64,000 bases of DNA, taken from positions 32,621-96,620 of the forward strand of contig NZ_CAMLSE010000029.1 of assembly GCF_946482605.1 (NCBI RefSeq). Reading direction: 5' to 3'. Shown here one piece after another: positions 14,779 through 61,386 of the stretch. Position 1 is the first letter of the stretch; every line of letters begins with the position of its first letter. Source of the DNA: an uncultured Dyadobacter sp. GTDB lineage: Bacteria; Bacteroidota; Bacteroidia; Cytophagales; Spirosomataceae. Below the pieces are notes generated by a model. The model was not told where the DNA came from, ran no database searches, and was given only the letters and a program-made list of their open reading frames with translations. A program made the translations under genes and the position numbers.

Positions 14779-14785
14779 AAATCTT

Positions 14786-17937: not shown

Positions 17938-17974
17938 TTCAATGATCGGTGATGGGTAGAAGTGAGAGGTGATT

Positions 17975-18559: not shown

Positions 18560-18689
18560 TTTTGAAGGTTGATTTCAGGTTAAAATTTTTGAAAAGGCAA
18601 TGAGGGTCCTGATGCACCGGGGACCGGGCAAAGGCAAGAGAAATCGTTTTCGAATGTTGTTAGTTCGGGTTGGGAATAAATTCTGGAAT

Positions 18690-19184: not shown

Positions 19185-19246
19185 AGGGATGGCATTTAAC
19201 TCTCTGAATTATACGTAATCACTTTCGGAATTGGGCAGTCTAGCTC

Positions 19247-20041: not shown

Positions 20042-20107
20042 GATCTTGTAGTTTAAAAATTTGATAGCTCAATTCGAAATGTGTTTAATCGTAACATTTT
20101 GAATATT

Positions 20108-22276: not shown

Positions 22277-22697
22277 AGCTTAACTGAGTTGAATGGTTGA
22301 GAAAAATCTTATGATTGATTATCCAGGTAATGAGACTGATATCGCTTCTGTCTTCTGCGTAGCTGCACATCGCTGTCGCCAACAAATTTCAATCTTAGTT
22401 ACCTCTCGTGTCCCCCCACGTTTGCGGGTATTTTCGACAATTTTTGTTTGATTTTTTCGCATGGTTTCTCTTTTTACCCCTTCATCGAAGGGTAAAAGAG
22501 GAATCTCATCACAAGGCGGAAAAAATTTTGAGAAATCTTCCCTGTCGAATGGATCGATTGGGCAATGAGCTGCCTTTCACCTTGGACAAGTGATTGAATG
22601 TGAGCCAATACCGACTCAATACCAGGAAGAATGCAGCGTATTCTTTGAGAAAAAAGGGGCTAGAAAATATGATTTTTACCGATCGCCATTTCAGTAG
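22277..22697. other. Intergenic region with a strong inverted repeat
   Basis: About 420 bp between the end of the CHAT gene and the start of the M48 gene, both minus strand. At about 22469-22500 a near-perfect inverted repeat (CTCTTTTTACCC ... GGGTAAAAGAG around TTCATCGAA) can form a stem of about 12 bp. It has no clean T run on either side, so it may be an end-of-transcript structure for the CHAT operon or an operator for the M48 gene. Nothing else coding-like is seen. Confidence 0.45.
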
Positions 22698-25478
22698 TTA
22701 CTCAATGAGTACAAACGGAGCCCATAACTTAGGTTGCGCGTATTTTTTCTGAATGGCTCTCTGTGCGTCCCTGAATGCCGCGTGAACCTCCATGCCCGAA
22801 GCAATTTTGGCATAAAAGGAAGTCATCAGTTGTTTGGTCACGGAATCATCCACAGGCCACAGGCTTAAAAGCAGTTTTTTTACGCCGGCCATTCTGAACG
22901 CACGCGGCAAGCCAAACGCACCCTCGGAGCCACGTAAATCTCCAAGAGCTGTCTCGCAAGCACTCAATACCAACAGCTGCGTTTGACTCAGGTCCTGGTA
23001 TTGAATTTCATACGCTGTAAGCAAACCATCTTCTCCATTAACCGGGATACTTTTCATCTGCCAAAGTTCATTTGCACCTGAGAGCACCAGAGCACTTCGC
23101 ATGTAAGCTTCATCCTGCGATTGGTCTGTTTGCTTCGCATCCGGCCGAAGGTAAAGACCATGCGTTGCCAAATGCAGGATATCAGGGGAATGTCCCGAAA
23201 ACTGCCTGAATCGCTTTTCCGAAGCCTCCTTATCGGTTATCAGCTCTGATTTAGGCAATGTGCGGTGAATCTCATTCACCTCTTTGATTGTGGCCGCGAG
23301 CGGTGCAAAGGGCCTCAGATGCGCTTTTTCGATCGCAGTTTGCAGGGAGGTTAACGACGCCTTATTCTTTGGGGCGGGAACGCTTTCCGGCCCGGCCGTT
23401 CCGTAGTCCACCCCGCCGAAAAGCACAACCGACATCCGTCGTTCGAAATGGAACGGAGTAATGCCCGCCACCAGCTGCTTCGTGCTGAAAAGCTGATGAA
23501 GCTCGTATTTGCCATCCAGGTATTGGTTAACGACCGGTGTTTCAGAAGTCGTTCCGGGCAGCGGCAATGCGGCAAAGGCTACCCGGGTCAATAATCCCTG
23601 GGCCGAATAATAAACCCGGTTCACCCCTCCCAGCAACTTATCGATGGGTCGCCACACCAGCCGGTACAGCGAATCTCCGTAGGCAATCCTGGCAAACCCT
23701 CTTTCCTGCTCTTTTGCGTAAAGGTCGGGCCGGGCCAACAGCTCATTGAGCTGAACCTCATTGCCGAGCGACACAAAACGCGGGGCGCTGTAATCGGGCC
23801 TGATGACCATTGCGGCATAAAGTATATCTTCCGGTTTATTCGAAAACTCTGTAAGAGGTGAGGCAATGGCGGAGAACGATCTGAACCGCACAAAGCTCAC
23901 CGCTGCCTGATCGGGAGCCAGACTTTTCCTGATCTGATTCCAGCTAATTTCCTCCTGCACCGGCTTTGCCTTAGATACTTTTGTCAGCAACTCTTCCAGA
24001 TCATCCCTTATTTCCTCTGCTTTGGTCAGGGCCGATTCTTTTTGAGCGACGGGCAGGTTTGGAATTCGTTGCCGTTGGATCAACCACGACTCGTACAGCT
24101 CAGTGATCTGCCTGTTGTTTTGTGCTTTAATGAAGTCCCTTTCCCGGCGCGTCTCGTCGAACAACAGGCTGTTCAGATACAAATCGGCGTCATAACTCAG
24201 TTTCGACATGACCGTATCCGGACTTTGTTTCTTCTTTTGAATGAAATCGGTGAACGACAAGGTCATTTGCATACCCATATCCAAGCCGGCATAGGCTTCG
24301 TTGTCATCTTCTGTCCCACCCAAATTGAAAGCGAGGCGCTGCAGGCCCTTGACGAGATTGTGATTTTCTCTGACTTGTGCAGCGACTTTGGCATACTGAC
24401 CCGATTGCATGTACACAAACATCAGTTCTTTCCGACAGCTGGCAGCCAGCGGCGTGTCCAGGGCATTCAGTTTTTTCAAAATTGAAATGGCGTCTTCAAA
24501 ATGCTTCTGAGCTTTGCCGAAATCAACTTTTACTGTCCGGTAAAAATTTCCCGCCGTACTATGACAAACAGCAGACGCCGCGCTCTTTTCTCCATTTTGC
24601 GCTATGCACTGCTCAAACGATTTTTTTAATTCACCCTCGGTCATATTGTTCTTTACTCGCGGCATTTCCGCACCCAGGGCCAAATAGGGGTTGCGGACCA
24701 CTAATGCTTCCTCATTGGATTTCTTTCCCGGGGCGGGCTTCTTGTTACTGCTTTTGTTGTCACTTTTTTCCTCGTTTTTCTGAGGCTTGTCATCATCATC
24801 TTCTTCATCATCGTTGGCCGCATCTTCCTCGTCTTCGTCACGCTGTATTTTTTCCATGAGCGCCAGGAACTTTGAGCGGGCTAAGCGCACCTTACCGGAA
24901 TCACTTCCCTTTTCGAAAAGTCCCGCCGCTATTCCATACAACCGTACCGCCGTAAAAGGCGCATAACTCTCAGGTTTGGCTGGTTTCATCAATTCATCGC
25001 TGATGGACATGTACCGGTCGCCCAGCATGGTCGCACTTTGCACGGATTTTAGTTTTGCCTGCCGCTTTTCCGCTTTCTCGAATTTTTCAAATGAAACACT
25101 TTCATATTCTTCATCGCCCGTTCTCAGGTAGGCGTACCCGAGCGTGACCAGATTGTTGATACTGATCAGGTCCGGGGGGTATTTGTCCAGAATCTTCTCC
25201 GCCTTACCTGCGTACTCGATGCTTTTGAGATATTTTTTCTGACGAAGTTCCAGGTCACCTTTTGTAGCCAGGTAATTCCCCTGGATCCGCTGTTGTGCGG
25301 GCAGTGTCAGGGTTGCAATGGCCTTATCTACGAGGAGACCAGCCTGTTCGTATTTCTTTTTAGCGATCGCATCCTGGATTTGACTGTCGATTTGCTTCAA
25401 ATCCTGGGCGCGTACATGCGTGAGGAGGATGCATAGCAAGATCTGCGATAACGCAATGGTTTGTATCAATCGAGCCAT
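22698..25478 (-). CDS. Secreted TPR-CHAT caspase-fold protease
   Basis: A protein of 926 residues with a signal peptide (ending T-H-V-R-A-Q). TPR-like helices cover about 25-250. A very acidic then Lys/Ser-rich linker lies at about 215-260, and more TPR-like helices follow to about 480. The C-terminal CHAT domain (about 600-926) carries the caspase-like dyad: His in H-L-A-T-H-G-L-Y and Cys in V-L-S-A-C-E-T-A-L-G-D, followed by the typical G-L-P-R-A-F-R-M-A-G-V and W-P-V-D-D-S motifs. CHAT proteins are proteases, for example separase-like enzymes and Csx29 of Craspase. Its gene begins 5 bp after the caspase-like gene, so two caspase-fold proteases are coexpressed and both exported. Confidence 0.92.
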   Translation of the reverse strand: MARLIQTIALSQILLCILLTHVRAQDLKQIDSQIQDAIAKKKYEQAGLLVDKAIATLTLPAQQRIQGNYLATKGDLELRQKKYLKSIEYAGKAEKILDKYPPDLISINNLVTLGYAYLRTGDEEYESVSFEKFEKAEKRQAKLKSVQSATMLGDRYMSISDELMKPAKPESYAPFTAVRLYGIAAGLFEKGSDSGKVRLARSKFLALMEKIQRDEDEEDAANDDEEDDDDKPQKNEEKSDNKSSNKKPAPGKKSNEEALVVRNPYLALGAEMPRVKNNMTEGELKKSFEQCIAQNGEKSAASAVCHSTAGNFYRTVKVDFGKAQKHFEDAISILKKLNALDTPLAASCRKELMFVYMQSGQYAKVAAQVRENHNLVKGLQRLAFNLGGTEDDNEAYAGLDMGMQMTLSFTDFIQKKKQSPDTVMSKLSYDADLYLNSLLFDETRRERDFIKAQNNRQITELYESWLIQRQRIPNLPVAQKESALTKAEEIRDDLEELLTKVSKAKPVQEEISWNQIRKSLAPDQAAVSFVRFRSFSAIASPLTEFSNKPEDILYAAMVIRPDYSAPRFVSLGNEVQLNELLARPDLYAKEQERGFARIAYGDSLYRLVWRPIDKLLGGVNRVYYSAQGLLTRVAFAALPLPGTTSETPVVNQYLDGKYELHQLFSTKQLVAGITPFHFERRMSVVLFGGVDYGTAGPESVPAPKNKASLTSLQTAIEKAHLRPFAPLAATIKEVNEIHRTLPKSELITDKEASEKRFRQFSGHSPDILHLATHGLYLRPDAKQTDQSQDEAYMRSALVLSGANELWQMKSIPVNGEDGLLTAYEIQYQDLSQTQLLVLSACETALGDLRGSEGAFGLPRAFRMAGVKKLLLSLWPVDDSVTKQLMTSFYAKIASGMEVHAAFRDAQRAIQKKYAQPKLWAPFVLIE

Positions 25479-41052: not shown

Positions 41053-41802
41053 TTATTGGTAGCTGTTTTCGGGCTCTATTTTTTTCTTTCTTCTCATCGA
41101 TTCCCCCCTCAGTTCTATCCGGTGCGCGTCGTGGACAATGCGGTCCAGGATAGCGTCGGCAATGGTTTTTTCACCGATCACTTCATGCCATTTGCTGACG
41201 AGCAACTGCGAAGTAATAATCAACGATGCTTTTCCGTGCCGGTCTTCGATGATCTCCATCAGGGCGGCCCTGCTCTGTGCATCGAAGGGCTGGATACCGA
41301 AGTCATCGAGCACCAACAGGTGCTGCCGTTCGATCCTTGCGATTTCCTTGATATAAGAGCCGTCAGCCTTGGCCATTTTCAAGCGGGCGAACAGTTTTGG
41401 GGTACTCGCGTAAAGTACGCGGTACCCCTGGATGCAGGCTTGATGGCCGATGGCAGTTGCCACATAGCTTTTGCCGATCCCGGTGCTGCCGGTGATCAGC
41501 AGGTTCTCATTGCGGGTGATAAAAGAGCAATCAGCCAGGCGCATGACCTGGTTACGATCCAGACTGCGATCAGCATGGTAATGGATATTTTCGACGACGG
41601 CTTTATAACGGAACCGGGCCTGGTAGATCTGCCGCTCTACGCGGCGGTTGTTGCGATCGTCCCACTCGGCGTCCACAAGGTACCCTAATAGCTCATCGGC
41701 CGTATAATCATTAGTTTTCCCGCTTTCCAGGCTGGTTTTGAAGGCATGGAACATGCCATAAAATTTAAGCTTACGCAGCTTCTCCAAAGTGTCATTGTTC
41801 AT
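41053..41802 (-). CDS. istB: IS21-family transposition ATPase IstB
   Basis: A protein of 249 residues. It has an N-terminal helical domain and a DnaC/DnaA-like AAA+ ATPase with Walker A L-I-T-G-S-T-G-I-G-K-S-Y (about 100-111), Walker B L-L-V-L-D-D-F-G-I-Q and sensor I-I-T-S-Q-L. IstB forms ATP-dependent assemblies that choose the target DNA and stimulate IstA. It is intact, full length for the family, and lies directly downstream of istA. Confidence 0.95.
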   Translation of the reverse strand: MNNDTLEKLRKLKFYGMFHAFKTSLESGKTNDYTADELLGYLVDAEWDDRNNRRVERQIYQARFRYKAVVENIHYHADRSLDRNQVMRLADCSFITRNENLLITGSTGIGKSYVATAIGHQACIQGYRVLYASTPKLFARLKMAKADGSYIKEIARIERQHLLVLDDFGIQPFDAQSRAALMEIIEDRHGKASLIITSQLLVSKWHEVIGEKTIADAILDRIVHDAHRIELRGESMRRKKKIEPENSYQ

Positions 41803-41927
41803 TGTATGGATTGTTTAAAAGGTTACTGATAATATTCTTCACCCCTGATATTGTCGTGGTTAGGCATCGGCAGCTCGTCGGCGAACAGGCTGTCCTCGTA
41901 CTGGTCCATCTTCTTTTCCAATATCAT

Positions 41928-43373
41928 CTAGATGATTTTGTAGTTGTAAATACCATAGCTCAACGCGCGCTGGCATGCGCTGATCAGCCGCTGTTCGCCA
42001 GCCTTTTTTGCGAAGGACAAAATGCCGATGCAGGAGCGGTAGGCCTGCTCGGGATGCTGCTTACGGTCCAGTATTTTCAGGATATAAAGCCTTACGTCAT
42101 CGTGGATCGAGGAAGCCCATTCGACGAACTTATCCGGGGTCCATTCGGTCAAAAAGCGGTGCGTGCTGGCCAGGTGCTCTTTATCGGTCGAGTAATTGTA
42201 GGGGCTTTTGACACGCTGGTGCAGTGCTATGCGCTCATAACGATAGTAGATCTCCACCAACGTGCCCGAGAACAGCAATTTGACCTTCTTGCCGATGAAC
42301 CGGTACGGGACGCTATAATAGTGCTTGTCGATGCTCTGGTTCACGTGCCCGTTTTTCATCACGGTCGCATGCGACTGCTTTTTGAACTCGTAGCGGAGCA
42401 GCGGCAGCGGAGAGAGTGCACCTCGCTCGATCTCTTCGAATTGAAGCCTGCGGGTGTAATTGCGACCGCGCAGGAGCTGATTATTATGGACTTCCAGGGC
42501 CGCCCATATGGCTGCGTTTAGCTCGGATAGTGAGTTAAAAACCTGCTTTCTTAAAGGCGCATAGATCCGGCTGTAAACGATTTTAACAGCCCCTTCGACC
42601 AACGCTTTGTCGCGTGGCCGGTAAGCCCTGGTGGGTAATATGGTGGTCCCGTAATGGTTGGCAAAGTCCTCAAAAGTCTCGTTCAGGGTAGGTTCATACC
42701 GGTTGCTCTTGGTGACGGCCGCCTTTAGATTATCCGGGACTACGGCCGCCGGAACGCCACCGATGTAATGAAAAGCATTCTCACAAGCCAGGATCAGATC
42801 TTCTTTTTGCTGGCTCATAACCGCTTCTACATAGGTGAGCTGGCTGGCACCCAGGATGGCAATAAAGACCTCAACCTCAATTACTTCGCCAGTATCCCTG
42901 TTTACGAAGCTCAGCTTTACACCGGCAAAATCGATATAGAATTTATCGCCCGCTTTATGGTCCTGGTGCATAACAGGATTTACCCGGGCCTTCCACTGAG
43001 CCAGGTGGAAGCAGAACTGGGTATAGCCAAAACCGTCAGGGAATTCCTTTTTGTAGCTCTCCCAGAGCGAATAACGCGTCTCGCCGGTTTTTTTGAGCTC
43101 TTTATCTATCCGGGGAAAACAGCGCTGTAAGTTCAACAGCCTATCCTGCGGCGGCATCTGTCTAACTGCACCGAAAAACTCGTCCAGCTCCTTATCGTTC
43201 AGGCCGTTGATCTGCTCGAAAGTCAGACCGCTCGCTTCAAAAGTAGCCATGTACTTCTTGGCCGTATTGCGGGAAACGCCCGTTTGCTCAGCTATAAAAA
43301 GCTTGCTGCGCCCTTGACTGTACATCCTTAGGATCTGTCTTATCTTATTCATGCTGATAGTCGAATTAGCCAT
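41928..43373 (-). CDS. istA: IS21-family transposase IstA, cut short by an in-frame TAG
   Basis: The protein has 481 residues as terminated. It has an N-terminal helix-turn-helix (L-F-I-A-E-Q-T-G-V-S-R-N-T-A-K-K), a DDE integrase core with D in F-Y-I-D-F-A-G, D in V-V-P-D-N-L-K-A and E in K-A-L-V-E-G-A-V, and a beta-barrel C-terminal domain. After the TAG at 41928 the same frame continues for 34 codons (M-I-L-E-K-K-M-D-Q-Y ... N-H-D-N-I-R-G-E-E-Y-Y-Q) to TAA at 41823. That is the usual IstA ending (H-x-N-I-R-G-x-x-Y-Y), so the TAG looks like a nonsense mutation of a native codon. The ATG at 43373 is preferred to a GTG nine bases upstream. Confidence 0.9.
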   Translation of the reverse strand: MANSTISMNKIRQILRMYSQGRSKLFIAEQTGVSRNTAKKYMATFEASGLTFEQINGLNDKELDEFFGAVRQMPPQDRLLNLQRCFPRIDKELKKTGETRYSLWESYKKEFPDGFGYTQFCFHLAQWKARVNPVMHQDHKAGDKFYIDFAGVKLSFVNRDTGEVIEVEVFIAILGASQLTYVEAVMSQQKEDLILACENAFHYIGGVPAAVVPDNLKAAVTKSNRYEPTLNETFEDFANHYGTTILPTRAYRPRDKALVEGAVKIVYSRIYAPLRKQVFNSLSELNAAIWAALEVHNNQLLRGRNYTRRLQFEEIERGALSPLPLLRYEFKKQSHATVMKNGHVNQSIDKHYYSVPYRFIGKKVKLLFSGTLVEIYYRYERIALHQRVKSPYNYSTDKEHLASTHRFLTEWTPDKFVEWASSIHDDVRLYILKILDRKQHPEQAYRSCIGILSFAKKAGEQRLISACQRALSYGIYNYKII

Positions 43374-43436
43374 ACTTTCCACGGTTGGTATCCGCCAAAA
43401 ATATGGGTGATTCTACAGCATTTTTCTGCTTGACAG

Positions 43437-44886: not shown

Positions 44887-45777
44887 CTAGAATGCTATCC
44901 TAAGAAGAAGAGTTTTTCCCTCACCCGATTCTGAGCATATTGCGAACGGTGATGTTGCGTTGTCACTAACCACAAAAAAACTATCATTGGTCAAAGCTAT
45001 TCCCTCTATGTTTGTATTGAAGCCGGCATTTTCAAAGGAATTTACTAAGTTAGTTAAATTTTTATAGGGCTGGTACTGAATCAGGTCATCATTAGATACT
45101 TTCTCCATCAGCTTGCTGGAAATCCTTACAATTTCATATGAACCTTTTTGCGACTTTAGCATGTACACATAATCATCAACTGGATTGTAAACGAGGTCAG
45201 TAAGACGCCAATTTTTGCTTGGTTGAGGAAGTCTGATATTTTTCAGGAACGTCAGTACGGGTAGAGATTTACCATTTGCTATTTTGAATACACGCATGAT
45301 GCTCTCACCATTTCCATTACTTTCTTTTAGAATATAACAAAGATCACGAGATTCATCAACTGCTATTCCTTCCATGCCCATATTTCCAATGTCACCGCTC
45401 AAATCATAATCGCTATCCACTACAGACGCTATGCCAGTGCTAGAATCAATGTATAAAATCCGTCCAACTCTTTCATCGGCCAAAAGCATCCCGTTGGAAT
45501 ATAATGTTGCTCCTTCAATCTCAACTTCATCTCCATGAATGTTGTTATCGTCTATTCGTTGGATAGTTTGCCGAGCCCCTGAGAGGTTACAAACGTATAG
45601 TGATTTGCATTTTTCTGGTATCAAAATTAGTCGATTGTCTTTTGTAACTATGCTTGAAACCTCCAGCGCGTTAGAGAAGGTCGAATCGAGAAGTATTTGC
45701 TGAGCTCTAGCGGCAAGTTGAGATAAATGCATAAGCAACGCCACGCTGACAAAAGTAACAGATTGCTTGTAAGGCAT
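44887..45777 (-). CDS. Secreted beta-propeller-like protein (SdiA-regulated/phytase-like)
   Basis: A protein of 296 residues with a signal peptide ending about L-A-A-R-A-Q. The body reads as short propeller blades: V-T-K-D-N-R-L-I-L-I-P-E, G-R-I-L-Y-I-D-S-S-T-G, G-M-E-G-I-A-V-D-E-S-R-D-L-C-Y, T-N-I-E-G-I-A-L-T-N-D-S-F-F-V-V-S-D-N. The E-G-I-A strands are typical of the SdiA-regulated and esterase-like phytase propellers. The function is unknown; it may bind metal and a small molecule. The ATG at 45777 is preferred to a TTG nine bases upstream. It ends the giant-gene module; a 97-bp gap separates it from the next gene. Confidence 0.65.
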   Translation of the reverse strand: MPYKQSVTFVSVALLMHLSQLAARAQQILLDSTFSNALEVSSIVTKDNRLILIPEKCKSLYVCNLSGARQTIQRIDDNNIHGDEVEIEGATLYSNGMLLADERVGRILYIDSSTGIASVVDSDYDLSGDIGNMGMEGIAVDESRDLCYILKESNGNGESIMRVFKIANGKSLPVLTFLKNIRLPQPSKNWRLTDLVYNPVDDYVYMLKSQKGSYEIVRISSKLMEKVSNDDLIQYQPYKNLTNLVNSFENAGFNTNIEGIALTNDSFFVVSDNATSPFAICSESGEGKTLLLRIAF

Positions 45778-45874
45778 AAAGTACAAGTTAGAGGTGGGTA
45801 ATTAGTAAAAGTTCAGTTTGTTCAAGCTGTCAATTTATCCGAAAAAAAGCGGTATTAATTAAGACCGATATTTG

Positions 45875-46630
45875 TCATAGAGATTTAAAATATAATGTTA
45901 ACGAACTTTGATTATTCTTTATAAACGCTTGGCAAACCTCGTTTTCTAAATACTTATTAAAATTTTCAGTTGACATTGCCGAAAACTTGTCGGTTTCTGA
46001 AATAAGTGATGGAGTTTTCAGAAGCGATTTCAAAAGTTTTTTAAGTGGATCCGCTGTGTTTTGTAATGAATCTATTTTACTAGAAATAAACTGTCTTAGT
46101 TTTTGACAATCACCACTAATTGAATATTGAGAAAAAATTAATATTTGACTGCTAGGTTTGTCATTATACACATTGAATGAAAGAATATAAGTCGCCTTCG
46201 GTATATTAGCACCATCTGATTTTATAATCTCGGAGAGCTGTCCCAAAGCTGCGAAAAGCACCTCTTGGCTGTCCGAAATCTGGAGAGAAGGCCTTTCGAA
46301 AACATTATTCTTTGTAGGTGTTAACATCGGAATATAAGCTTGGAAGTAGCGACGTACGGTATCTATATGAACCAATATATTGTATATTCCTTCGTTGGCT
46401 ATTGGCTGCATTTCTATTGTTGAACTTTTTACAAGATTATACTTAGTGTAAGGTGGAATATCCAATATTGCATAGCACTCCGGAGAATCTGACTCGCTAA
46501 TGGGTGGAAGAAGCGTGATTTCTAGTTTAGGAGCAGACGGAATCGCTAATTTCATAGACGTAAACTTTACTGCCTGCGCCGCTATCTGTACGCTTAATGT
46601 CGATAGAATTAATATAAATAATGTTCTCAT
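45875..46630 (-). CDS. Secreted protein of unknown function in the giant-gene module
   Basis: A protein of 251 residues with a signal peptide (M-R-T-L-F-I-L-I-L-S-T-L-S-V-Q-I-A-A-Q-A). The mature part has beta strands in the first 130 residues (K-L-E-I-T-L-L-P-P-I, Y-A-I-L-D-I-P-P-Y) and helices in the last 80. No family recognised. It begins 2 bp after the 1505-residue gene, so it is made together with the giant proteins, yet it is exported while they show no signal peptide. Confidence 0.6.
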   Translation of the reverse strand: MRTLFILILSTLSVQIAAQAVKFTSMKLAIPSAPKLEITLLPPISESDSPECYAILDIPPYTKYNLVKSSTIEMQPIANEGIYNILVHIDTVRRYFQAYIPMLTPTKNNVFERPSLQISDSQEVLFAALGQLSEIIKSDGANIPKATYILSFNVYNDKPSSQILIFSQYSISGDCQKLRQFISSKIDSLQNTADPLKKLLKSLLKTPSLISETDKFSAMSTENFNKYLENEVCQAFIKNNQSSLTLYFKSL

Positions 46631-46632
46631 AA

Positions 46633-49600
46633 TTATCTGATATGGAGTATGTCTGCATGAACTAGTCTTCTTCTTTCCTCATTTGTATCGCCTTCATAAA
46701 CTTCGTATTCTCGTACTAAGGCTATCGAAAATCTGTTCAGATTTTCGATAGAGTCAGTCCATATAAAGCCGTCATCACCGTTCTTTTTCATTGACTGCTC
46801 TTCTCCACCGCTTTTTGCAAATAATGAACTGACACTATTGTCGACATCCGCACCAAAGAATGTAACCGTCGCCAAGCGAGTAAAGCTAGCCTTGCCAAAC
46901 TCACTTACGTTGAGATAAATCGATCGTCGCTGGCCTAAGTCGTCAACTGACAATGATCGTGGACCTTGTAACTGTATGAAGTCAGTTAATATAAACTGTG
47001 ACAAATGTTTTCCGGGTTCTGACGAAGCCTGGTAACGTGCAATCGAAAATCTTACGAACGCGCTGTACGAGGTCGGAACATCTAGCTGAACATCTACAAA
47101 CCATAGACATTCAGTGGAGTCAAACTTCACATCAAATATTCCAATCTGAAAGATTTTGGGTGATATCACTTCTAATTTCTTATTGAGTAAGGAAAAAGCC
47201 TCTTGTGGAACATCTCCTTTATTCACAATCATATTCAAAGAAAGAGGCGATAGTTTCTTGCCCGACACTGTTGCGTCGCGGCCCCATGATGACACATTTT
47301 GATCGTGCATTTTCCAACTATCAGTCGGTATCCTGTCTGGTCCGCATATTATAGCGAGTTGTTCGTTCTGGCCAGAGGAATACCAGGGGCGTTCAAGATA
47401 AATTCGAATGATGTTATTATTTCGAACCCTTTTAGTCGCTGAGTTCAATGTTGCACCGCCTTTGAATTCCCAAGTATACACTGGGAGTGCGAAGGCAAAT
47501 TTCGGCGCGTCTGGATTTTTGCTGCTATTTATAACTACTTCGTTATATGACGTACGAGATTCGATATTGGGTTGCTCGACTAGGGTTCTCTTATGAAGTA
47601 CTTCGCCGGAATTCAAGAGGGATTGGAATCTATTATTTACTTCGAACCAGTAACGACACACTCGATGTTTCGTGTCTGGTAAGGTATGTTCAAATTCAAC
47701 TTGTAATTCATTTATGTCATCATGAACAATTCTCTCCTCCTCACTTATGTAGCGTGCTAGGCCTTCATAGGTTTTTGTCGGAAGCATACGCTCGATGATG
47801 CGCTTCTTCTGTTCAGGAGAATCGCTGAACTCTTTCACAATGCCGGTAGATGTAACAAGACGTATCGGAATGAAATTACTTTGAATACCATCCTTTTGAG
47901 CTTCGTCGAGAATATCTGTCCACTCGGCGTAAAGCTCAAGATTATCTACTGTCTTGCCAGGATAGTTAAGCCTTGTTCGGAAGCGTTTGAGCAACTCGCT
48001 GTCTCCCGGCTTTTTCCTTAAGCGTTCGATCGCCGGTTTTCCTTGAATAATTTTGTATTCAGCAAATTTTTTTAGTTTACGAACGGGATGCACGGCTCGG
48101 AATGTTGCTATACCCACAAGATCAGGTATGTTAAGCTCGCCCTTTGCCTTATTATGGACTAGACTGTCCGGCTTATAGTAGTGATCAAAATCGGAGTTCA
48201 TGTTGGTGTCTTGCCACCATGGATAGGACTGGAGAATGAATTCCACGTCTTCACCTGGACCAAGGCGGATTTCAATTGTTCGGTCCTTTTCCTGGATACT
48301 CACTACCCCTTCATTTTCATCAGCTATTACTTTTAGGGTAATTGGATAAACATTTAACGGATCAAATGGTGTGATATTTTTGATGATGCTGACTGCTTCG
48401 AAAGGCAAGTCATTAAAAATCGATTTTCGATTGCGAGCTGACGCACAAATAAACAGTTGTCGAGACAATGGATCGCTGAGGTACGGAAGAGGTTTTGATG
48501 CATCCTGTAAGAGCTCCGGATATTTACCAGTTTTTCCTGCCCAATAGTAGGTTCCGTCTGATATCTTTTCAATATCAGGCATCAATCTTTGAGAAAAATC
48601 GAAAAGTTTTTCAGGGTCGAGTTTTTTTTCGGTGTCAAAGACACTGGACCACTCACTCAGCTTCCAAGATATTACTGAAGAAGCCAGTACGCGAGTTTGC
48701 GATTTTAATTGGGATTCATATTCGCTATATACAACTATTTGATTAGTTGTGTTCACTTTGGCAGCAAAGGTTGGTATTGAATGAATAGCCGTGGTCAAAT
48801 ACATGTCAGGTGGACAGATGCTCTCTTGTCTAAGATATTTCTTTTTGAGAAAGATGCTCGTTTTAGCAGATAGTTGGTGACTAGTTCCGTCTATACTCAC
48901 AAGCCGAGCTCGGATTGAATAGGTTGAGTCTATTCTTAACAGAGGTAAGGACTTTGCACGGGGTTTCAGCTCGTTTACAAGAAGCCGACATTTTGCAAGG
49001 TAACCTGCTAATGAAATTCCGTTTTCAATATTGTTTCGTATAGTACTATTTCGACTGTTCAGCTGCCTAACTTCATTGGCTAGGCGACTACTAATGGTGA
49101 TTCCTACGCTAAGACTTCCACCCGTTATATTACATAGCGTGCTTGTCGGAAGAAATTGTGATGCTGAAAAGGTATTTTCTGGGGTTTTCGCGCCTAGTTG
49201 TAACACGTTGTAATAAACCTCTCCGTCAAAATTGCTAAGTGAAATTTTATCGCCAATTAACCACACATCAAGTAAGTCATTATTCTTGGTTACAGCAGCT
49301 TCTTTTTCTTCATCCGAAAGACCATTTGTAGTTAACAGTTTAATTTCAGCTGCTAGCGGGTTTTCGCCTACATCGTTTAAATTGTCTTGCATATAAACAG
49401 CGTAGTTAGTGAGAGAAAATTTGGTGGGGTCATTTCCCACTAGCTCAACGATGCGGTATTTTCCAATAGGGGTCGTCGATGTATCTAGTGCCTGCGGTAT
49501 CAGTTTTACTGCTTCTTCATCTGAAACATCACCGTTTACAACATACACCCGTGGCTTTACCTCAACGATTGATTCTCTAGCGGTCCAGCCTTCTTGGTCT

Positions 49601-51150
49601 ATGTTGTAGTTCTTAGACGCAAAGGACACTGTTCCAGTGTATTCGTGTAGTGATTTCCAGACACTGGAGTCTTCGCTAACGTCGAATCGGTAACCTACAA
49701 CAAGATTTTCAAGATACAGGATGCTGCTTGGCGGATTGAGGGACTCTATGATTGCATCAGACGGACGATTACGAACGACAAATAATCCAGTAGTATGATC
49801 AGCGAATCCCGATTTGTTATGATAAATTTGTTGAGGAAGGTTTTGTAGTATTTCGAAGACATTATACGGCTTATTTCTGTAAGTATCTGTAGCCTTTAAA
49901 TTTAGAAAGCCATCTTTAAAGAAGGACTTCGAGCCGGTTGGTTTTGAGGCGGGTCGGAAATGGAAAGGAACTGTATCGTCTTTTGCCTGAGATATCTCAT
50001 AGGCAACGGAATAGTTATTTTCCAGCGTAAAGGTTGAACTTATACGTGCTAGCTCTTGATGACCTTCAAATTTTATACCGACTTCGCCAGAATGTAGGAG
50101 CTTTTGTGCCGAAGAGTCATCGCTATTAAGCGGAAATTTAAGAGTCCACAATAAACCCAATCCCCTACGCAGTGAGTCATAGTTTGAAAAATATCCAATT
50201 ATATCCGATAAATGTACAACCTCAGGTTGATTAAAGTTGGAGGTGTAAGCGGCGTTTTCGTTTACACTGCTTGAAGACGTCTGGCCATCCCTTTTCTTGC
50301 TCATTTCTTCATTCACTACTTGGGTGTCCAGCTGAGCGGATTCTATAATTCCTTTGGTTGTGGCAATTTTTGAAAGAACAGATAGGAAGCGTTTTTTCTC
50401 CAGAATCGAATATTCGTCGGACTTTATATCTGTACTTAGTTTTCTAATCGATTTGCCTATTTCATTCAAACTGTCAACTTCACCTTTCTGTATTCGTTCA
50501 AGTTTATCTGGCAGACTTTTTGCTTCCTTTATACGATTTAGGATTCGTTGCTGAGAGGAATCCAAATTCTTTATATATGAATCAAATTCCTCTTCTAGCG
50601 TTATATTACGTCGCTTAAAGTCATCAATTATACTTGTCCACACTGTTTGCCGGGATCTAAGCTTCTTATCTTGTTGTTCATAGGACAATTTTTTACTTTG
50701 ATTCTCTTTAATTCTTTCAGCGATTTTAGAGATATCTTCTGACGTCTTTTGAATGACATTGTCTATTTTTGTAAGATCAAACCTTGTCTGCCGGGTTAAA
50801 TCGATAGATAGTCGTTGAATAATCTCAGGATCGTTGAGCGGGGCTTTCAACTGTAACCACATACTTTTTAGACCTTCCGGAGGATTGGAAATTTTTGCCT
50901 CAGAAACCAAAAGTGCCGAATGAGAGTCGCTCGACTCGGAATTAACCGTTATGGATATATTCTTCATCAGTCCTGTAATCCAGGCAGGGAACTCGTCAAA
51001 TCCTTTATCCTTGTCGAAGTCAATTAGAGATATCTTTTGAGTCGGATCACTGCCGTGGCGAATTGAAACAACTAGATTTATCTCACCAATATTTTTTCCG
51101 TTCTGAACGGAAATCTTTGAAGGGACGGGTATTATACTAACGTTATACAT
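46633..51150 (-). CDS. Giant protein of unknown function (1505 aa)
   Basis: No known family is recognised. The first 120 residues form a beta-rich module (M-Y-N-V-S-I-I-P-V-P-S-K-I-S-V). Residues of about 125-300 are strongly helical and charged, coiled-coil-like (I-A-E-R-I-K-E-N-Q-S-K-K-L-S-Y-E-Q-Q-D). The rest, about 320-1505, is a mosaic of beta domains with conserved-looking motifs V-V-G-Y-R-F-D-V, I-Y-L-E-R-P-W-Y-S-S-G and a final T-V-T-F-F-G-A-D. There is no signal peptide or membrane helix. The gene begins 5 bp after the 1598-residue gene and so is translated with it. The composition is AT-rich, unlike the left half of the window. The size, tandem beta domains and coiled coil suggest a structural or surface assembly, but that is inference. 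Confidence 0.7.
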   Translation of the reverse strand: MYNVSIIPVPSKISVQNGKNIGEINLVVSIRHGSDPTQKISLIDFDKDKGFDEFPAWITGLMKNISITVNSESSDSHSALLVSEAKISNPPEGLKSMWLQLKAPLNDPEIIQRLSIDLTRQTRFDLTKIDNVIQKTSEDISKIAERIKENQSKKLSYEQQDKKLRSRQTVWTSIIDDFKRRNITLEEEFDSYIKNLDSSQQRILNRIKEAKSLPDKLERIQKGEVDSLNEIGKSIRKLSTDIKSDEYSILEKKRFLSVLSKIATTKGIIESAQLDTQVVNEEMSKKRDGQTSSSSVNENAAYTSNFNQPEVVHLSDIIGYFSNYDSLRRGLGLLWTLKFPLNSDDSSAQKLLHSGEVGIKFEGHQELARISSTFTLENNYSVAYEISQAKDDTVPFHFRPASKPTGSKSFFKDGFLNLKATDTYRNKPYNVFEILQNLPQQIYHNKSGFADHTTGLFVVRNRPSDAIIESLNPPSSILYLENLVVGYRFDVSEDSSVWKSLHEYTGTVSFASKNYNIDQEGWTARESIVEVKPRVYVVNGDVSDEEAVKLIPQALDTSTTPIGKYRIVELVGNDPTKFSLTNYAVYMQDNLNDVGENPLAAEIKLLTTNGLSDEEKEAAVTKNNDLLDVWLIGDKISLSNFDGEVYYNVLQLGAKTPENTFSASQFLPTSTLCNITGGSLSVGITISSRLANEVRQLNSRNSTIRNNIENGISLAGYLAKCRLLVNELKPRAKSLPLLRIDSTYSIRARLVSIDGTSHQLSAKTSIFLKKKYLRQESICPPDMYLTTAIHSIPTFAAKVNTTNQIVVYSEYESQLKSQTRVLASSVISWKLSEWSSVFDTEKKLDPEKLFDFSQRLMPDIEKISDGTYYWAGKTGKYPELLQDASKPLPYLSDPLSRQLFICASARNRKSIFNDLPFEAVSIIKNITPFDPLNVYPITLKVIADENEGVVSIQEKDRTIEIRLGPGEDVEFILQSYPWWQDTNMNSDFDHYYKPDSLVHNKAKGELNIPDLVGIATFRAVHPVRKLKKFAEYKIIQGKPAIERLRKKPGDSELLKRFRTRLNYPGKTVDNLELYAEWTDILDEAQKDGIQSNFIPIRLVTSTGIVKEFSDSPEQKKRIIERMLPTKTYEGLARYISEEERIVHDDINELQVEFEHTLPDTKHRVCRYWFEVNNRFQSLLNSGEVLHKRTLVEQPNIESRTSYNEVVINSSKNPDAPKFAFALPVYTWEFKGGATLNSATKRVRNNNIIRIYLERPWYSSGQNEQLAIICGPDRIPTDSWKMHDQNVSSWGRDATVSGKKLSPLSLNMIVNKGDVPQEAFSLLNKKLEVISPKIFQIGIFDVKFDSTECLWFVDVQLDVPTSYSAFVRFSIARYQASSEPGKHLSQFILTDFIQLQGPRSLSVDDLGQRRSIYLNVSEFGKASFTRLATVTFFGADVDNSVSSLFAKSGGEEQSMKKNGDDGFIWTDSIENLNRFSIALVREYEVYEGDTNEERRRLVHADILHIR

Positions 51151-51155
51151 AGTTT

Positions 51156-54100
51156 CTAAAAAAATGAGGCGTATTTTATTGCATCGTCTTTTGAAATATT
51201 GTAAGAAAATAAGAGTGATGGGTCATAAACAGGAATTGGTTCAGAGTTTTTGGAATTTCTAAAACCGTACGGTGCGTCATGCTTTGGCGAGATGCCAATT
51301 GTTGGCTCATTTTTGGACGACGCTAGCAAGGTATCTAAGCCAGGCGCGATCAATCCCGTAATGGATGCATTGTTTCCGCCGATTGTCTTTTCAAAGCTGA
51401 GTGTATAGGAAGCGGACCAAAACAAGACACTGACGCTTACCGTGACACTACATCGGCCAGTTAGTACACCGTTCATGTATCCCATACCAAGATAGAATAC
51501 GACCGATACATTTATAATTCCGATTATAGATAGATTACCTCCACATACGATATATGCTTCGACGTAGGGTCTATTGTCTCGAATGCGAAAATAGATTCCT
51601 GCCATAAGATAAGCCTGACCACTTGCAACGCCGAAGTTGAGCCCTAGATAGCCCCCGAATTCTAATGACGCTTCAAATTTTTTCATTCCCATTGCCGTCG
51701 CTTCGAGAGCAATAAACCCTCTTCCGCCAAAAATTCCTGCGGCCAAAGTGAATGGGTTAGCTCTCTCGGAAAAACTAAATCTAACAGACGGGGTTTCACC
51801 AGATTTGAAAGGTATTAAAACACCCGCAAATAACGCAGCATTGGCGATGGTAAAAGGTCCTGTCGATATTGGGGGAATAGTTATACCAATACTCAATTGA
51901 ATTCCATCACTCCGAAGATCCATTAAGAAACCTTTTAGACCAAGTAGATCCTGGAGCTGCTTTACCAGCGAGAGATAGTGATCGAATTCAACATTAGCAA
52001 TGCGGAAGTCGACATTGGTGGCAGATGACGTGGACTGACCGGAAAATAGCGTCTTTTTTTCTAAGACTATTTTCTCAAAATATAACACAATTAAATCCGC
52101 GGTGCCGATCTGTATGGCTATTCCAAAGTTTCCAATTTTAATCTCAGATTTTATCTCGCTCTTCTCATTTGTATTTAGAGGTAATGTTGAGTTAATGTCA
52201 ATTGATATTGTCGGGGCATCTTGTTGGGTCTTAGATGTTCCCCATCGGAATGGTGAAGTATCATCTTTTTTGAATATTGGCCTTGCCGGGTTCCATTTGT
52301 AAGCCATCTGGACGGCAACTGGAAGCTCCAGGCCAGAACTACTTTTCTTGTATACTTTGGTGATTCGTGTTTCCGGAAGAATCTGAGGAGAAAGTGCATC
52401 CTTATTAATTATGTCAGATAGTCTCAGGCCAAAAATAGATATCTCGGAAAAAATATTCAAGACTTCTGCCTTCGCGCTTTCGGTAAATTCATGTACTTTT
52501 TGCTGGCCGACACCTTCAACCTCTTTAATTGAATTCTTGATAGTTCCATCGATCTCGTTTACAAGGGCTTTGGTCATGTAGTACGTGTTTTTTGACAGCG
52601 AGAGAACCTTGCAAACGGGGCTTGGATCGATCAGGTTTCCGGTTAGACTGCCAGCTGAGCTTAGGAGCCCTCTCATTTCTCCTGCGACGAAGCTATTTAC
52701 TTCTTGATACTTATTATGTATAACATCCTTGGTTAGTGACCTCGTTTTTTCGAGATACTCTCTTAACTGGACATAATTATTTGATGCTATTGATTCCAAC
52801 TGCGCCGTTAGCAATTGCGAATTTGCAATATTGATTAAAATATCGGATTCTATATCCTTTCTAGTCTTTTGTGAAATATAGCTATATTTCTGAACATCAA
52901 ATAAAATTCGCTCTTTATTTGCACGTCCTGCACCTTGGATGTCATATAGTTTTGCAAGAATTGGATTTTGCTGAACCTCTTCGTGATGAATTATTTCGGC
53001 TCCGGCTTTTATGAAGGCGTCGCTGTAACTAAGAAGGATTGATCGACCATCATCTGAAAATTCTTTTTGTATCGGAAGTTGAACCGACGCCACCGAAAGC
53101 TTTGGAAAAAAATGTGTTTTTTCAAGAAGTGCCGATTCGTACAACTCTTGGCCCTCTGGGATGAGTTGTGATCGAAGCATAGTCAATTCTGCTGATCCGG
53201 CAGCGGTGAATTCCATGAAGCGGGTTTTTAGCTTTGAAATACCTTCTTCTGCACTTGACGATGCTGTGTCTATTTCAGATTTGTAAAACGCAATGGTTTG
53301 ATCATTCAATCCAATTTGACGTAACGGCTTATTTATCGGACTCTGATAACTTTCCATAATAGCGGAATCGAGTTCCAGAGTTTTATTGACCGTTCCTGTT
53401 ACCTTCTGATATAGTTCATTGAGTTTTGAATAAGCCAGGAAATTCTGGCGAAATCGATCCAGTTCGGATGAGCCGGCGTTTAAACTTTCTTGCAAATTGG
53501 CACTGTGCGTATTGACATATTTATCTAGTTCTATAGCAGTAGACTGAAGAAACTTTTTTGTATCGTTTAACTTTAATTTATCCCCCGGTAAATCTAGGGC
53601 ACCCAAATATTTTTCCGCTTGGGTTTGTAAACCCACAACTTGTCGTTGCATTTCTGATCTTACAAATATAAAAGGAGCCTTGAATGCAACTTCATTCCCA
53701 TCCCAATCAACGCCGATAAAGTCGAACAACACCTCTTTGTTTGTCGCTGCTATATTCTTGGAAGCCAGACGGGGCCAGTATGCGAGAACGTGTTTGTTTG
53801 AATTTATTATTTCGGTATGTGAGCAAGCGACGATGCTGGTCGATATTGATCTGATTGCGGCTACCTGTTCGTTGAATTTGTTCTTAATTTTTTCTGAAAC
53901 ATTAATATTGTTCTCCAAAATATTGATGCATGATCCCAAAATTACGTTTATCAAACTATCAAGTATTTTCCGCTTTTCACTTGGGTTTCGAATTAAACTG
54001 GCCTCCGTATCGTTACAGTATTTATGGAAATTTGAAAGGCACTCTGGAACCTTGCCGGAATCTGATAGTTTTGCTATTTCCTGAACAATACTCGAAAATT

Positions 54101-55952
54101 TATTTTTGATAAGCTGTACTGATAGCTCTGAAGTAGAATAATATAGCGACAGAATTGGTTTGGTCACTTTGTTGTGAATCTCGTTAATCAATTTGTCACA
54201 TATATTCGATGAATCGGATATGAGATTTCTGTTCTCTTCTGAGATGGTATTAAAATTTATAATTTCTCGTAGAAATTTTTTATAATCATGTATATATTCG
54301 ACGTAATCTAAGTAGTTGTTTCGGTCTATTTTGATAGTATCGGAGGATATAGAAACTTCGGTTTCGTCTTTTACGAGTTTGAGAAACCAATCTGGAGCAT
54401 TTATTGATTCATTATTAAGAATATTTTCAATGTTTGGACGTAAAACTGAAACAAGATTTTTGATTGCCGACCAGGATCCATCTATATTGGATTTTAACAG
54501 ATTTTGTATATTCGCATCTATTTTAGCAACATTAGGCTCCTCTTTTTGAATTATTTTTTGAAATTCGGTATCGGAATTTTCAATGGGCTCTGATATTTCC
54601 GTTACAATGCGAATTTCCGAAAATGGTGAAGATCGTTTGAGGGAATGAAGTTGATCCTGCTCAAAACGGTCACTGGCATATAGAATGGAATTTAATTTAT
54701 CTTCCACACTTTTGTTAGACTGATCTGATTTTGATCTGTAGTAGGCCAAAGAGTCAAGAGTTTTTAGGACCGTTTTTCTTTTGAGAATGGATACACCATC
54801 AATATTTACTCTTTCTATTATTTCAACTTCTGCCATTGAGTGCCCAAACGGGAAGCAACTGCCTGGGTACTCGATTTCAATTTTCTGATCTCTTCCTAAT
54901 ATAATCTCCTGCGCCCACTTGCTAATTCTTGCATCCCGTTTTTTTGTTTGATATTCAAGCTTGGTGTATGCACCAAGGCCGGTAATCATTGCCCGAAGAG
55001 AAGTTGTGTCTACAAATTCGCTATTATTTGGATCTTCTCTGAATTGTTTAACAAGATCGTATTTATTTTTTCGACTAGGAAGTGAAGCTATCCTGTCATC
55101 AATAGTATCATTTACGGAACCGATGATTTTAAATTTTGGTGATGTATCACGAGATTTGTCAATCTGTTGAATCAACGAATTGTTCCATATTGGATATGCG
55201 TTCGAAGGTAGTTGGTAAGTGGAAACTATTCCGTGTTGTCTTAATTGTCTGGGTATGTATCTGTTCCGGTCGAGAATCTGATTGTTATATAGTTGTCTGT
55301 ACTGGACTTCTATCTGTCCAATTAAATCAAGGAAGGACATGCCTCTATTGAGCAGATGACTGTCGTTGTTATTTGAAAATATTATAGGCTTGTTGTTTTC
55401 GGTATATGGAGAGATATACAGTCCTTTTGGAACTTCTAATGTTGTTACTGGGCGGCTTTGTTGATCTGTGATCCAAGGTATTGATTTGGTTGGTGATATG
55501 AAAAATCTACTCTGTTTGTCTACACATCTGAGCTTCATATATCTACTGTCGTTCCACTTTAGTAATTCTTTAATTGTGAACGGCATGCCTGTTTTTACAT
55601 CAAACACTAACCACGATGATGATGCGATCGATGATATTGACATGGTAATGTCACTAGGTTTTATCTGCCCTGAAAGGGGTGATTCACTTTTATGTAAGGG
55701 TGGTATTTTGATTAGTAATGTTGGAGGCGAGGTTAGACCGACTAATTTGTTGTTTACAACTTTGCCGCCATAAATAAAAAATTCGAGGTGGAAAAGGTTT
55801 TCGTGGTTGACATAGATATAATGCTCTATGTCAACTTGGGAAATTGTAGTATTTTGTTGTTTATTCTCAATTAGTCGAAGAATTTCTGGCGCGTCTGCAG
55901 CGAAGAGGGTCGATAGCTTTATGAAAAGCCTCCTAGAAAGATCAAAATCCAT
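51156..55952 (-). CDS. Giant protein of unknown function (1598 aa)
   Basis: No known family is recognised. Residues 1-300 are mixed alpha/beta (M-D-F-D-L-S-R-R-L-F-I-K-L-S-T). A long helical centre of about 330-1150 has many heptad-like stretches. A region rich in beta strands and glycine follows at about 1290-1530 (E-F-G-G-Y-L-G-L-N-F-G-V-A-S-G, A-Y-I-V-C-G-G-N-L-S-I-I-G-I-I-N-V-S-V-V), with alternating small and hydrophobic residues as in pore or barrel strands. The last 70 residues are polar. No signal peptide is present. The gene is the first of a tight four-gene run to 44.9 kb and is preceded by a 525-bp empty spacer and the amidase-like gene. Its role is unknown. Confidence 0.7.
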   Translation of the reverse strand: MDFDLSRRLFIKLSTLFAADAPEILRLIENKQQNTTISQVDIEHYIYVNHENLFHLEFFIYGGKVVNNKLVGLTSPPTLLIKIPPLHKSESPLSGQIKPSDITMSISSIASSSWLVFDVKTGMPFTIKELLKWNDSRYMKLRCVDKQSRFFISPTKSIPWITDQQSRPVTTLEVPKGLYISPYTENNKPIIFSNNNDSHLLNRGMSFLDLIGQIEVQYRQLYNNQILDRNRYIPRQLRQHGIVSTYQLPSNAYPIWNNSLIQQIDKSRDTSPKFKIIGSVNDTIDDRIASLPSRKNKYDLVKQFREDPNNSEFVDTTSLRAMITGLGAYTKLEYQTKKRDARISKWAQEIILGRDQKIEIEYPGSCFPFGHSMAEVEIIERVNIDGVSILKRKTVLKTLDSLAYYRSKSDQSNKSVEDKLNSILYASDRFEQDQLHSLKRSSPFSEIRIVTEISEPIENSDTEFQKIIQKEEPNVAKIDANIQNLLKSNIDGSWSAIKNLVSVLRPNIENILNNESINAPDWFLKLVKDETEVSISSDTIKIDRNNYLDYVEYIHDYKKFLREIINFNTISEENRNLISDSSNICDKLINEIHNKVTKPILSLYYSTSELSVQLIKNKFSSIVQEIAKLSDSGKVPECLSNFHKYCNDTEASLIRNPSEKRKILDSLINVILGSCINILENNINVSEKIKNKFNEQVAAIRSISTSIVACSHTEIINSNKHVLAYWPRLASKNIAATNKEVLFDFIGVDWDGNEVAFKAPFIFVRSEMQRQVVGLQTQAEKYLGALDLPGDKLKLNDTKKFLQSTAIELDKYVNTHSANLQESLNAGSSELDRFRQNFLAYSKLNELYQKVTGTVNKTLELDSAIMESYQSPINKPLRQIGLNDQTIAFYKSEIDTASSSAEEGISKLKTRFMEFTAAGSAELTMLRSQLIPEGQELYESALLEKTHFFPKLSVASVQLPIQKEFSDDGRSILLSYSDAFIKAGAEIIHHEEVQQNPILAKLYDIQGAGRANKERILFDVQKYSYISQKTRKDIESDILINIANSQLLTAQLESIASNNYVQLREYLEKTRSLTKDVIHNKYQEVNSFVAGEMRGLLSSAGSLTGNLIDPSPVCKVLSLSKNTYYMTKALVNEIDGTIKNSIKEVEGVGQQKVHEFTESAKAEVLNIFSEISIFGLRLSDIINKDALSPQILPETRITKVYKKSSSGLELPVAVQMAYKWNPARPIFKKDDTSPFRWGTSKTQQDAPTISIDINSTLPLNTNEKSEIKSEIKIGNFGIAIQIGTADLIVLYFEKIVLEKKTLFSGQSTSSATNVDFRIANVEFDHYLSLVKQLQDLLGLKGFLMDLRSDGIQLSIGITIPPISTGPFTIANAALFAGVLIPFKSGETPSVRFSFSERANPFTLAAGIFGGRGFIALEATAMGMKKFEASLEFGGYLGLNFGVASGQAYLMAGIYFRIRDNRPYVEAYIVCGGNLSIIGIINVSVVFYLGMGYMNGVLTGRCSVTVSVSVLFWSASYTLSFEKTIGGNNASITGLIAPGLDTLLASSKNEPTIGISPKHDAPYGFRNSKNSEPIPVYDPSLLFSYNISKDDAIKYASFF

Positions 55953-56478
55953 TTTTGTATAACTTAAGGTTTAAGTATTGCTTGCCCATCGGTAAGATTT
56001 AACGTACGATTCGTTTTTTTGGCGCCAGTTATGCGGCCGTTTTAACACTACTCAGCGCATAATTTCAGTTACAAACATTTATTTTTTTGCTGGTTTTCTG
56101 ATTATTTTTGAATCGTAATTGTAGAGAGTTGTAATTCTATTTGAAGTCAAATGTTAGTCTTTGTGCTGGATTGAATCTATGTACGAGGGTGCTTACTGTT
56201 GTTGAACGATTATTTTTTGTAGCCCTGTAGAGGTATATGTTACTTTTATTCGTGCCGTGTTTTTTATCCTACTCGTGCAATTTTTCTTAAGTGCGGAAGC
56301 AACGAGTAGCTCTCGCTATTTGATTTTATATTGAAGATCATTCACGACGACCTGTTGAGTATGAGGGTTCTATTGGCTTTTTGGTATGCGTATTTTTGCT
56401 ACGTCGCGATAAAGTTTCTATGCCAATATGGTGTGCGGACAGCTTTTAGGGTTGTATCTCTATATCATAACTAATAGA
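55953..56478. other. AT-rich spacer upstream of the giant genes
   Basis: About 525 bp between the amidase-like gene and the 1598-residue gene. I see no gene, hairpin or repeat. It is long enough to contain a separate promoter for the giant genes. Confidence 0.4.
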
Positions 56479-57039
56479 TCAATAGTTGCGCCCGTAGAGC
56501 AGTACGTTGTCTTTCTTATTTGCTCCAAACGCGCTAGATAATGGCTTTGAAATGTAGGCGCCTTGGGGGTTATCTAGAAAAAATGACGCTGAATTCGGGG
56601 TCTTTAGCTGCCAAGATGAAGAGCTCGTGGTTTGGCCAGGTAGTATAAGAGCAATATGTCCATAGCCTGAGCTGTTTTTGTAGATCGCAATGACGGCTTT
56701 TTTGACGTTCGCGTAGCCCTGAGCTTCGTCTAGTGCTTTTTGAGAAGAGCCGGTGCCAAGCAGGGTCCATTTGTCGGTGTGGATACTGACGTAATCAGCT
56801 ATTTCGTTTGAAACCATATATTTATCTGCCGATTTTTCGAAGTCTTTTACCTGGTAAACCTTCATAAGTGACTTTGCTACGAATTCGTTGCAGGGGGTGT
56901 TTGGAGCTGTCGGCCCCCCACAGCTCATAAATTCGTAAAGCATACTCTCCAATTCCTTTTTCCACTCTTGGTCCTGTTGCGATCGGAGGGAGACCAGAGA
57001 CGACAAGATGATTAGCCAGTAAATTTTGGTCGTTTTCAT
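56479..57039 (-). CDS. Secreted NlpC/CHAP-like putative peptidoglycan amidase
   Basis: A protein of 186 residues with a hydrophobic N-terminus (M-K-T-T-K-I-Y-W-L-I-I-L-S-S-L-V-S-L) acting as signal peptide. Cys50 in N-T-P-C-N-E-F-V-A-K-S-L at the head of a helix, followed about 75 residues later by the strand G-Y-G-H-I-A-L-I-L-P-G with a His, is the Cys-His arrangement of papain-like CHAP/NlpC amidases. These cut peptide bonds in cell-wall peptidoglycan; some are interbacterial toxins. The family is inferred from these two motifs only. The gene lies on the same strand as the giant genes and is transcribed first. Confidence 0.5.
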   Translation of the reverse strand: MKTTKIYWLIILSSLVSLRSQQDQEWKKELESMLYEFMSCGGPTAPNTPCNEFVAKSLMKVYQVKDFEKSADKYMVSNEIADYVSIHTDKWTLLGTGSSQKALDEAQGYANVKKAVIAIYKNSSGYGHIALILPGQTTSSSSWQLKTPNSASFFLDNPQGAYISKPLSSAFGANKKDNVLLYGRNY

Positions 57040-60828: not shown

Positions 60829-61386
60829 TTAGTAGTCTACGAAAACATGACCTTCATATTCACTGTATCCATCTAAAAACAGGTCTTTCGCGAAAGCTTC
60901 GTAGTCAAAATAACGTTCGAGAGCTTGTGGAACACCTGACAACAAGCCTGTCTCCTCGACGTATTGGTAAGCGTATTCAAGCTCAGGATCTTTCATCGAT
61001 CCACCAAAGAATCCACGGTAGCTTTCCCGGAATCCTTCAAGTTGGTCTTCCAATTCGTACCCATTGGATGGCCAGTAGTTAATCTGTTTACAGTAAATCT
61101 CGAATGCTTCGACAGTCTCTTCGTTCATTTCAACCGTAGCCTCAAAGTAGGCGAAAGCTTCTTTGTGAAGGCTGCATTCTGAAATTAAAAAATCCGGAAT
61201 GTTCTCCCAGTCCTGGAACATCAGCTCAGGATCCAGTTCATTACGATGAAACTCAAAACAGTCTTGCAGGAATTCTTTGAGGTCTGCAAATTCAGTCAGG
61301 TCAAACCATTTGCCGAACAGTGATCCACTGTTGTACTGACCATAGGTCCCAACGTAGATTTTAGGAGCATTTTCGAGATTTCTCAT
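60829..61386 (-). CDS. ardA: ArdA-family antirestriction protein
   Basis: A protein of 185 residues with many acidic residues. The N-terminus has the ArdA pattern I-Y-V-G-T-Y-G-Q-Y-N-S-G-S-L-F-G-K-W, then E-L-D-P-E-L-M-F-Q-D-W-E and A-Y-F-E-A-T-V-E-M-N, and E-E-T-G-L-L-S-G-V-P near the end. ArdA is a DNA mimic that blocks type I restriction enzymes and is carried by plasmids and integrative elements. Length and motifs are complete. The gene has its own terminator, and its upstream region overlaps the second copy of the interspersed repeat. Confidence 0.93.
   Translation of the reverse strand: MRNLENAPKIYVGTYGQYNSGSLFGKWFDLTEFADLKEFLQDCFEFHRNELDPELMFQDWENIPDFLISECSLHKEAFAYFEATVEMNEETVEAFEIYCKQINYWPSNGYELEDQLEGFRESYRGFFGGSMKDPELEYAYQYVEETGLLSGVPQALERYFDYEAFAKDLFLDGYSEYEGHVFVDY

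Follow-up and report, generated by a model that had tools for sequence, protein, structure and literature searches.

Two consecutive genes in a 64,000-nucleotide stretch of an uncultured Dyadobacter sp. genome (contig NZ_CAMLSE010000029.1; hereafter the window) encode giant proteins, which we call A and B. Five open reading frames (ORFs) in this part of the window lie on the minus strand, in the order D, A, B, C, and a beta-propeller gene (Table 1). The A and B genes are separated by 5 base pairs (bp) and the B and C genes by 2 bp, whereas the D gene ends 526 bp ahead of A. These ORFs, along with the sizes (1598 amino acids (aa) for A and 1505 aa for B), spacings, and tandem order described in an initial annotation of this DNA, were all confirmed.

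Table 1. Features of the AB locus, numbered from the first base of the window (Tat, twin-arginine translocation)
Feature	Position	Strand	Basis or remark
Giant protein A, 1598 aa	51156-55952	minus	One half of the AB pair, from an unnamed family; single-sequence matches to relatives
Twin-arginine motif SRRLFIK of A, residues 6-12	55917-55937	minus	Weak Tat signal on its own; fails strict Tat rule; relative P0002 passes
Beta-meander domain at A C-terminus, ~residues 1200-1536, most conserved part	51345-52355	minus	Fold predicted from the L002 homologue
Giant protein B, 1505 aa, without signal peptide	46633-51150	minus	Other half of the AB pair, likewise from an unnamed family
Most conserved part of B, ~residues 954-1401, Ig/FnIII-like	46948-48291	minus	Sequence conservation and predicted fold
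Protein C, 251 aa, exported, orphan	45875-46630	minus	Signal-like N-terminus; search with C as query
Exported beta-propeller, 299 aa, weak Phytase-like match	44887-45786	minus	Linkage to AB not conserved
Protein D, 186 aa, exported Cys/His protein	56479-57039	minus	Amidase identity unconfirmed; linkage not conserved

Searches of Pfam, NCBIfam, and PHROGs with A and B yielded nothing above cut-off and only sub-threshold noise (PHROGs has no curated cut-off; the best E value for A or B was 0.028), and PDB sequence profiles gave no match for either protein. The view that the giants fall outside well-described families therefore holds for these libraries. Three further A/B pairs likewise produced only sub-threshold matches in Pfam and NCBIfam, and a profile comparison of A with B found no relation between the two. 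DUF6603, considered as a similar family, was absent from the library matches. We also found no description of such a pair in the open-access literature, which was searched partly by loose terms.

Relatives are nonetheless readily recovered. Among 5.8 billion proteins, 13 relatives were found for A and 11 for B, excluding the queries themselves, and phmmer with the single A sequence returned relatives at 1e-30 to 1e-46. Only one A relative, P0002, matches over the full length (35%), and similarity peaks in the C-terminal third of each protein. Although later profiles contain the window copies, the relation was already clear from single-sequence phmmer, by which both A and B can be connected to the family without profiles that contain them. 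A scan of 84,980 species genomes with B confirmed 274 stretches, of which the best 80 were kept as loci. The record titles of these 80 loci, from which phylum labels were assigned, include Bacteroidota, Pseudomonadota, Acidobacteriota, Aminicenantes, Actinomycetota, Chloroflexi, Armatimonadetes, Myxococcales, and others; L038, an “uncultured bacterium” by title, was placed with Aminicenantes. Judged from these sequence matches, A and B of the window belong, as a divergent copy, to an unnamed two-gene family that spans many bacterial phyla.

The two genes are strictly paired. An A homologue is located directly 5′ of B on the same strand in 77 of the 80 loci, mostly with a gap of a few tens of bases, and in the remaining 3 loci B starts at base 1 or 2 of its contig. 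Among 395 Bacteroidota genomes, B is present in 18 and A in 19, and the same 18 carry both genes adjacent on one contig; among 388 Pseudomonadota genomes, A and B occur, adjacent, in the same 5. Thus, all 23 B-bearing genomes of the 783 sampled have an adjacent A, a count that includes two seed genomes (G006 and G019) picked because they carry the pair. Distances among A proteins correlate with those among B proteins (Mantel r 0.964 for 74 pairs; maximum of 2000 permutations, 0.18), although host relatedness contributes to this value. The distance and tree analyses were conducted without L053, L057, L016, and L070, short or truncated copies, and duplicates. The pairing itself is close to certain and, as far as sampled, apparently obligate. 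The additional A-positive Bacteroidota genome (G256, L093 3-6347) carries only the C-terminal domain of A, at the end of an unrelated-looking open frame of >2100 aa, and has no B.

The other three genes do not share this conservation. With phmmer, C, D, and the propeller all lacked a match at E up to 0.1 among ORFs from the 80 loci, and at E up to 1 in another 23 loci that overlap partly with these. A search with C as query returned only C, and C was found in none of the 395 Bacteroidota genomes, in a search that had no positive control. The propeller matches the Phytase-like family barely past cut-off (1.7e-6). D, which had been described as amidase-like, has no match in Pfam or among PDB sequences. 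More generally, few pairs have a co-directional neighbor within 150 bp (upstream in 12 of 62 loci, downstream in 12 of 70). Most AB pairs stand alone, the conserved module is A plus B, and C, D, and the propeller are local genes rather than conserved partners. The initial annotation had proposed that the giants travel together with these neighbors, but the relatives examined keep A and B without C, D, or the propeller beside them.

Models of B contain tandem Ig/FnIII-like domains, whereas the A model, built for the 1111-aa L002 homologue, ends in a porin-like beta-meander whose last six strands are amphipathic. A second look at fold similarity mainly covered residues 892-1092 of the A model and residues 728-1200 of the B model. 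Comparison with viral structures gave weak FnIII rows only.

Given that the giants had been described as lacking signal peptides, the N-termini of the family were examined with a strict Tat rule. It is passed by 38 of 70 A proteins compared to 1 of 90 B proteins and 78 of 1400 shuffled N-termini, with A ORFs taken from the leftmost start codon and with A proteins below 850 aa, A genes at contig starts, and duplicate loci skipped. The earlier description thus stands for B, whereas A proteins of this family often carry Tat-like signals, including those of Bacteroidota (20/21), Aminicenantes (8/8), Zipacnadia/WS1 and relatives (4/4), and one further case (1/1). For A members that bear such a signal, export by the Tat system is likely on this sequence basis. 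Some pairs also have a tatA gene nearby, which is directly ahead of A in two loci (L021 and L029), directly after B on plasmid pC of Sinorhizobium meliloti LMB1 (L083/L096), and ~0.8 kb after B in L103. In this last locus, tatA and a gene for a DUF4403 protein (1956-3949) come after the M35 peptidase gene that lies behind B.

In the trees of both proteins, the window copy joins a lineage whose pairs are very large (L101-L104 and S. meliloti L096; A of 2275-3056 aa). Plasmid members of this giant lineage, found with the B protein of L103, include those of S. meliloti, Rhizobium, Ruegeria, Ensifer, Agrobacterium, and Bradyrhizobium, and six of seven plasmid records are typed as conjugative. All nine full-length A proteins of the lineage pass the Tat rule. 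The gene after B codes for a trypsin-like protein in L101, a lipoprotein-like protein in L102, an M35 peptidase in L103, an M23 peptidase in L109 (where only a fragment of B is present), and small exported proteins in L104, L107, and L108; two other fragmentary loci (L111 and L112) were left out. Exported proteins are therefore often encoded after B in the lineage nearest the window, with unrelated proteins occupying the slot, and the idea of secreted accessory proteins is echoed there. Near the Ruegeria plasmid pair (L107 5009-27801; A of 3311 aa) are genes for a zinc-dependent phospholipase C, an M35 peptidase, and small exported proteins.

The surroundings of the window pair look mobile, because the genes to its right code for DUF6088/AbiEii, ArdA, and a DUF5655 protein. 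The antirestriction protein ArdA, a hallmark of mobile elements, is encoded at 60829-61386, adjoining the AbiEii pair. An insertion sequence, recognized by eye only, is located at 41053-43382. The region had also been described as AT-rich. Its GC content in 2-kb bins (0.36-0.41 for 44-58 kb) is indeed below that of most of the left part (0.45-0.54 for 1-44 kb in all bins but one, which has 0.39), but the right flank is similarly low (0.42-0.44). Transfer as a unit is consistent with this mobile-looking region and with relatives on plasmids, some of them conjugative, although the five genes do not constitute one module. Farther away, a minus-strand stretch at 12043-25478 encodes an FHA/trypsin-like protein, a Ser/Thr kinase with Sel1 repeats, an M48 peptidase, and a CHAT protein, and looks like a signaling or proteolytic cluster.

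We propose, with a probability of about 0.5, that A and B are exported together through the Tat translocase and then work as a complex in the envelope or outside the cell. The computed basis for this proposal is the strict pairing, the co-divergence, the Tat-like signals on A but not on B, and the tatA genes beside some pairs. The conserved bicistron would encode two subunits of one large complex, in which A proteins with a twin-arginine signal would be exported folded. For the A protein of the window, such export is probable by descent. B, which has no signal, may ride with A as a hitchhiker, and there are known cases wherein the Tat system carries signal-less partners in this manner (PMC10924467; PMC4273604). 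The complex, whether periplasmic, envelope-bound, or extracellular, could then act as a large binding or scaffold structure to which B contributes its tandem Ig/FnIII-like domains, whereas the amphipathic meander of A may bind a hydrophobic ligand or touch a membrane. The exported proteins that vary from locus to locus behind B in the giant lineage may serve as partners or cargo. A bolder version, which we regard as rather doubtful, is that AB is an undescribed giant two-protein, beta-structured machine that passes folded through Tat, helped in some lineages by a TatA of its own, and delivers cargo, lipophilic or enzymatic, into the envelope or across it; such a machine would occur in about ten phyla and on conjugative plasmids.

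Several points weigh against joint export. The Tat rule is failed by 32 of 70 A proteins, including all those from Desulfo/Myxo (0/4 pass), Acidobacteriota (0/3), and Actinomycetota (0/3) and most of those from Pseudomonadota (5/26 pass, one doubtful); moreover, the L055 pass looks false, while the L042 and L039 failures look Tat-like by eye. The window A protein itself fails because the stretch behind its motif is short and charged, although its nearest relative, P0002, passes. With ~3100 residues, A and B together are large for Tat. TatC is encoded in 25 of 25 AB genomes tested, which is weak support given that 11 of 14 controls have it as well. A rough Poisson estimate of 1e-5 for four tatA neighbors by chance takes a density of 3 genes per 4 Mb across 90 loci, when ~108 partly overlapping loci were actually scanned, and the L021/L029 and L083/L103 cases may be just two independent events. 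The grouping of the window copy with the giant lineage (tree support of 0.94 for A and 0.99 for B) rests on long branches. By a crude predictor, the next gene is exported in 6 of 11 giant-lineage loci versus 2 of 69 elsewhere (Fisher P 4e-5), but this contrast is post hoc, the 11 loci were selected manually and the 69 by a script, and among background genes the predictor scores 180 of 832 as exported. The same predictor rejects the L101 and L109 peptidases, and L096 (with tatA next), L106, and L110 were scored as negatives. Finally, the complex and its hydrophobic ligand are predicted indirectly, from sequences and models.

The best fold matches of the C-terminus of A, in the L002 homologue, are outer-membrane barrels, and this too weighs against the proposal. 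It is conceivable that the meander closes as a transmembrane beta-barrel, such that A would be an outer-membrane or pore-forming protein whose N-terminal part, with B, decorates the surface as a channel or adhesin. We consider this unlikely. Pairs occur in Actinomycetota without such an outer membrane (L035, L054, L056, and Streptomyces plasmids), and only six strands are clearly two-faced. For a closed barrel with an outward hydrophobic belt, the observations are the fold similarity and the two-faced strands, either face of which may point outward. Furthermore, proteins that pass through Tat are folded, and a barrel bearing a hydrophobic belt would not qualify.

The failures of the Tat rule, together with the 89 of 90 B proteins without a signal, would also fit a cytosolic complex in which the twin-arginine motifs are inherited decoration or are used only in some lineages. 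This appears quite improbable given the near-universal motifs in Bacteroidota, Aminicenantes, Zipacnadia/WS1 and relatives, and the giant lineage, and the tatA neighbors in at least two distant lineages. An exported assembly for toxin delivery, antibacterial activity, or defense, with the proteins encoded after B as effectors, would account for the trypsin-like, M35, M23/lysozyme, and phospholipase C genes beside giant-lineage pairs, for the AbiEii, ArdA, and Dpd genes near some copies, and for the copies on conjugative plasmids. Yet most pairs stand alone, and beyond the giant lineage the next gene seldom encodes an exported protein. No phage match was found for A or for the B protein of L047, and no PHROG for A or B of the window, which offers no link to phage tails or contractile injection systems, although no profile search was aimed at sheath genes. 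Of the earlier suggestion of a surface, toxin-delivery, or defense assembly, the exported assembly is supported, whereas toxin and defense roles received no direct support here, in searches that did not include PADLOC, and we judge them very unlikely.

A strictly paired, phylum-spanning two-gene system outside the searched family libraries represents a clear gap in bacterial cell biology, and the AB pairing offers a simple signature by which thousands of such “hypothetical protein” entries could be annotated. Should AB indeed exit via Tat, this would add a cargo of unusual size, accompanied in places by its own TatA, and the size limit of folded export would become directly testable.

Among known systems, FnIII/Ig-repeat proteins, including phage tail fibers, resemble B only in a generic fold, and neither A nor the L047 B protein matches any phage record. 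Large lipid-transfer proteins (MTP and ApoB) and the TULIP protein P47 have similar amphipathic sheets and appear in weak Foldseek rows for A (probability 0.1-0.4), but there is no sequence match, and the 50 top rows of the second look contain none of these proteins. Outer-membrane barrels of the OmpG/CymA type share the curvature and strand order of the C-terminal meander, whereas A has ~900 further residues, Tat signals, monoderm hosts, and no sequence relation by PDB profiles. Tat hitchhiker complexes such as Ni-Fe hydrogenases, formate dehydrogenases, and PaoABC differ in that AB is giant and beta-structured, has shown no cofactor or enzyme family, and includes many A proteins without a signal. 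However, these complexes have the same arrangement, wherein one subunit carries a twin-arginine signal and its partner does not.
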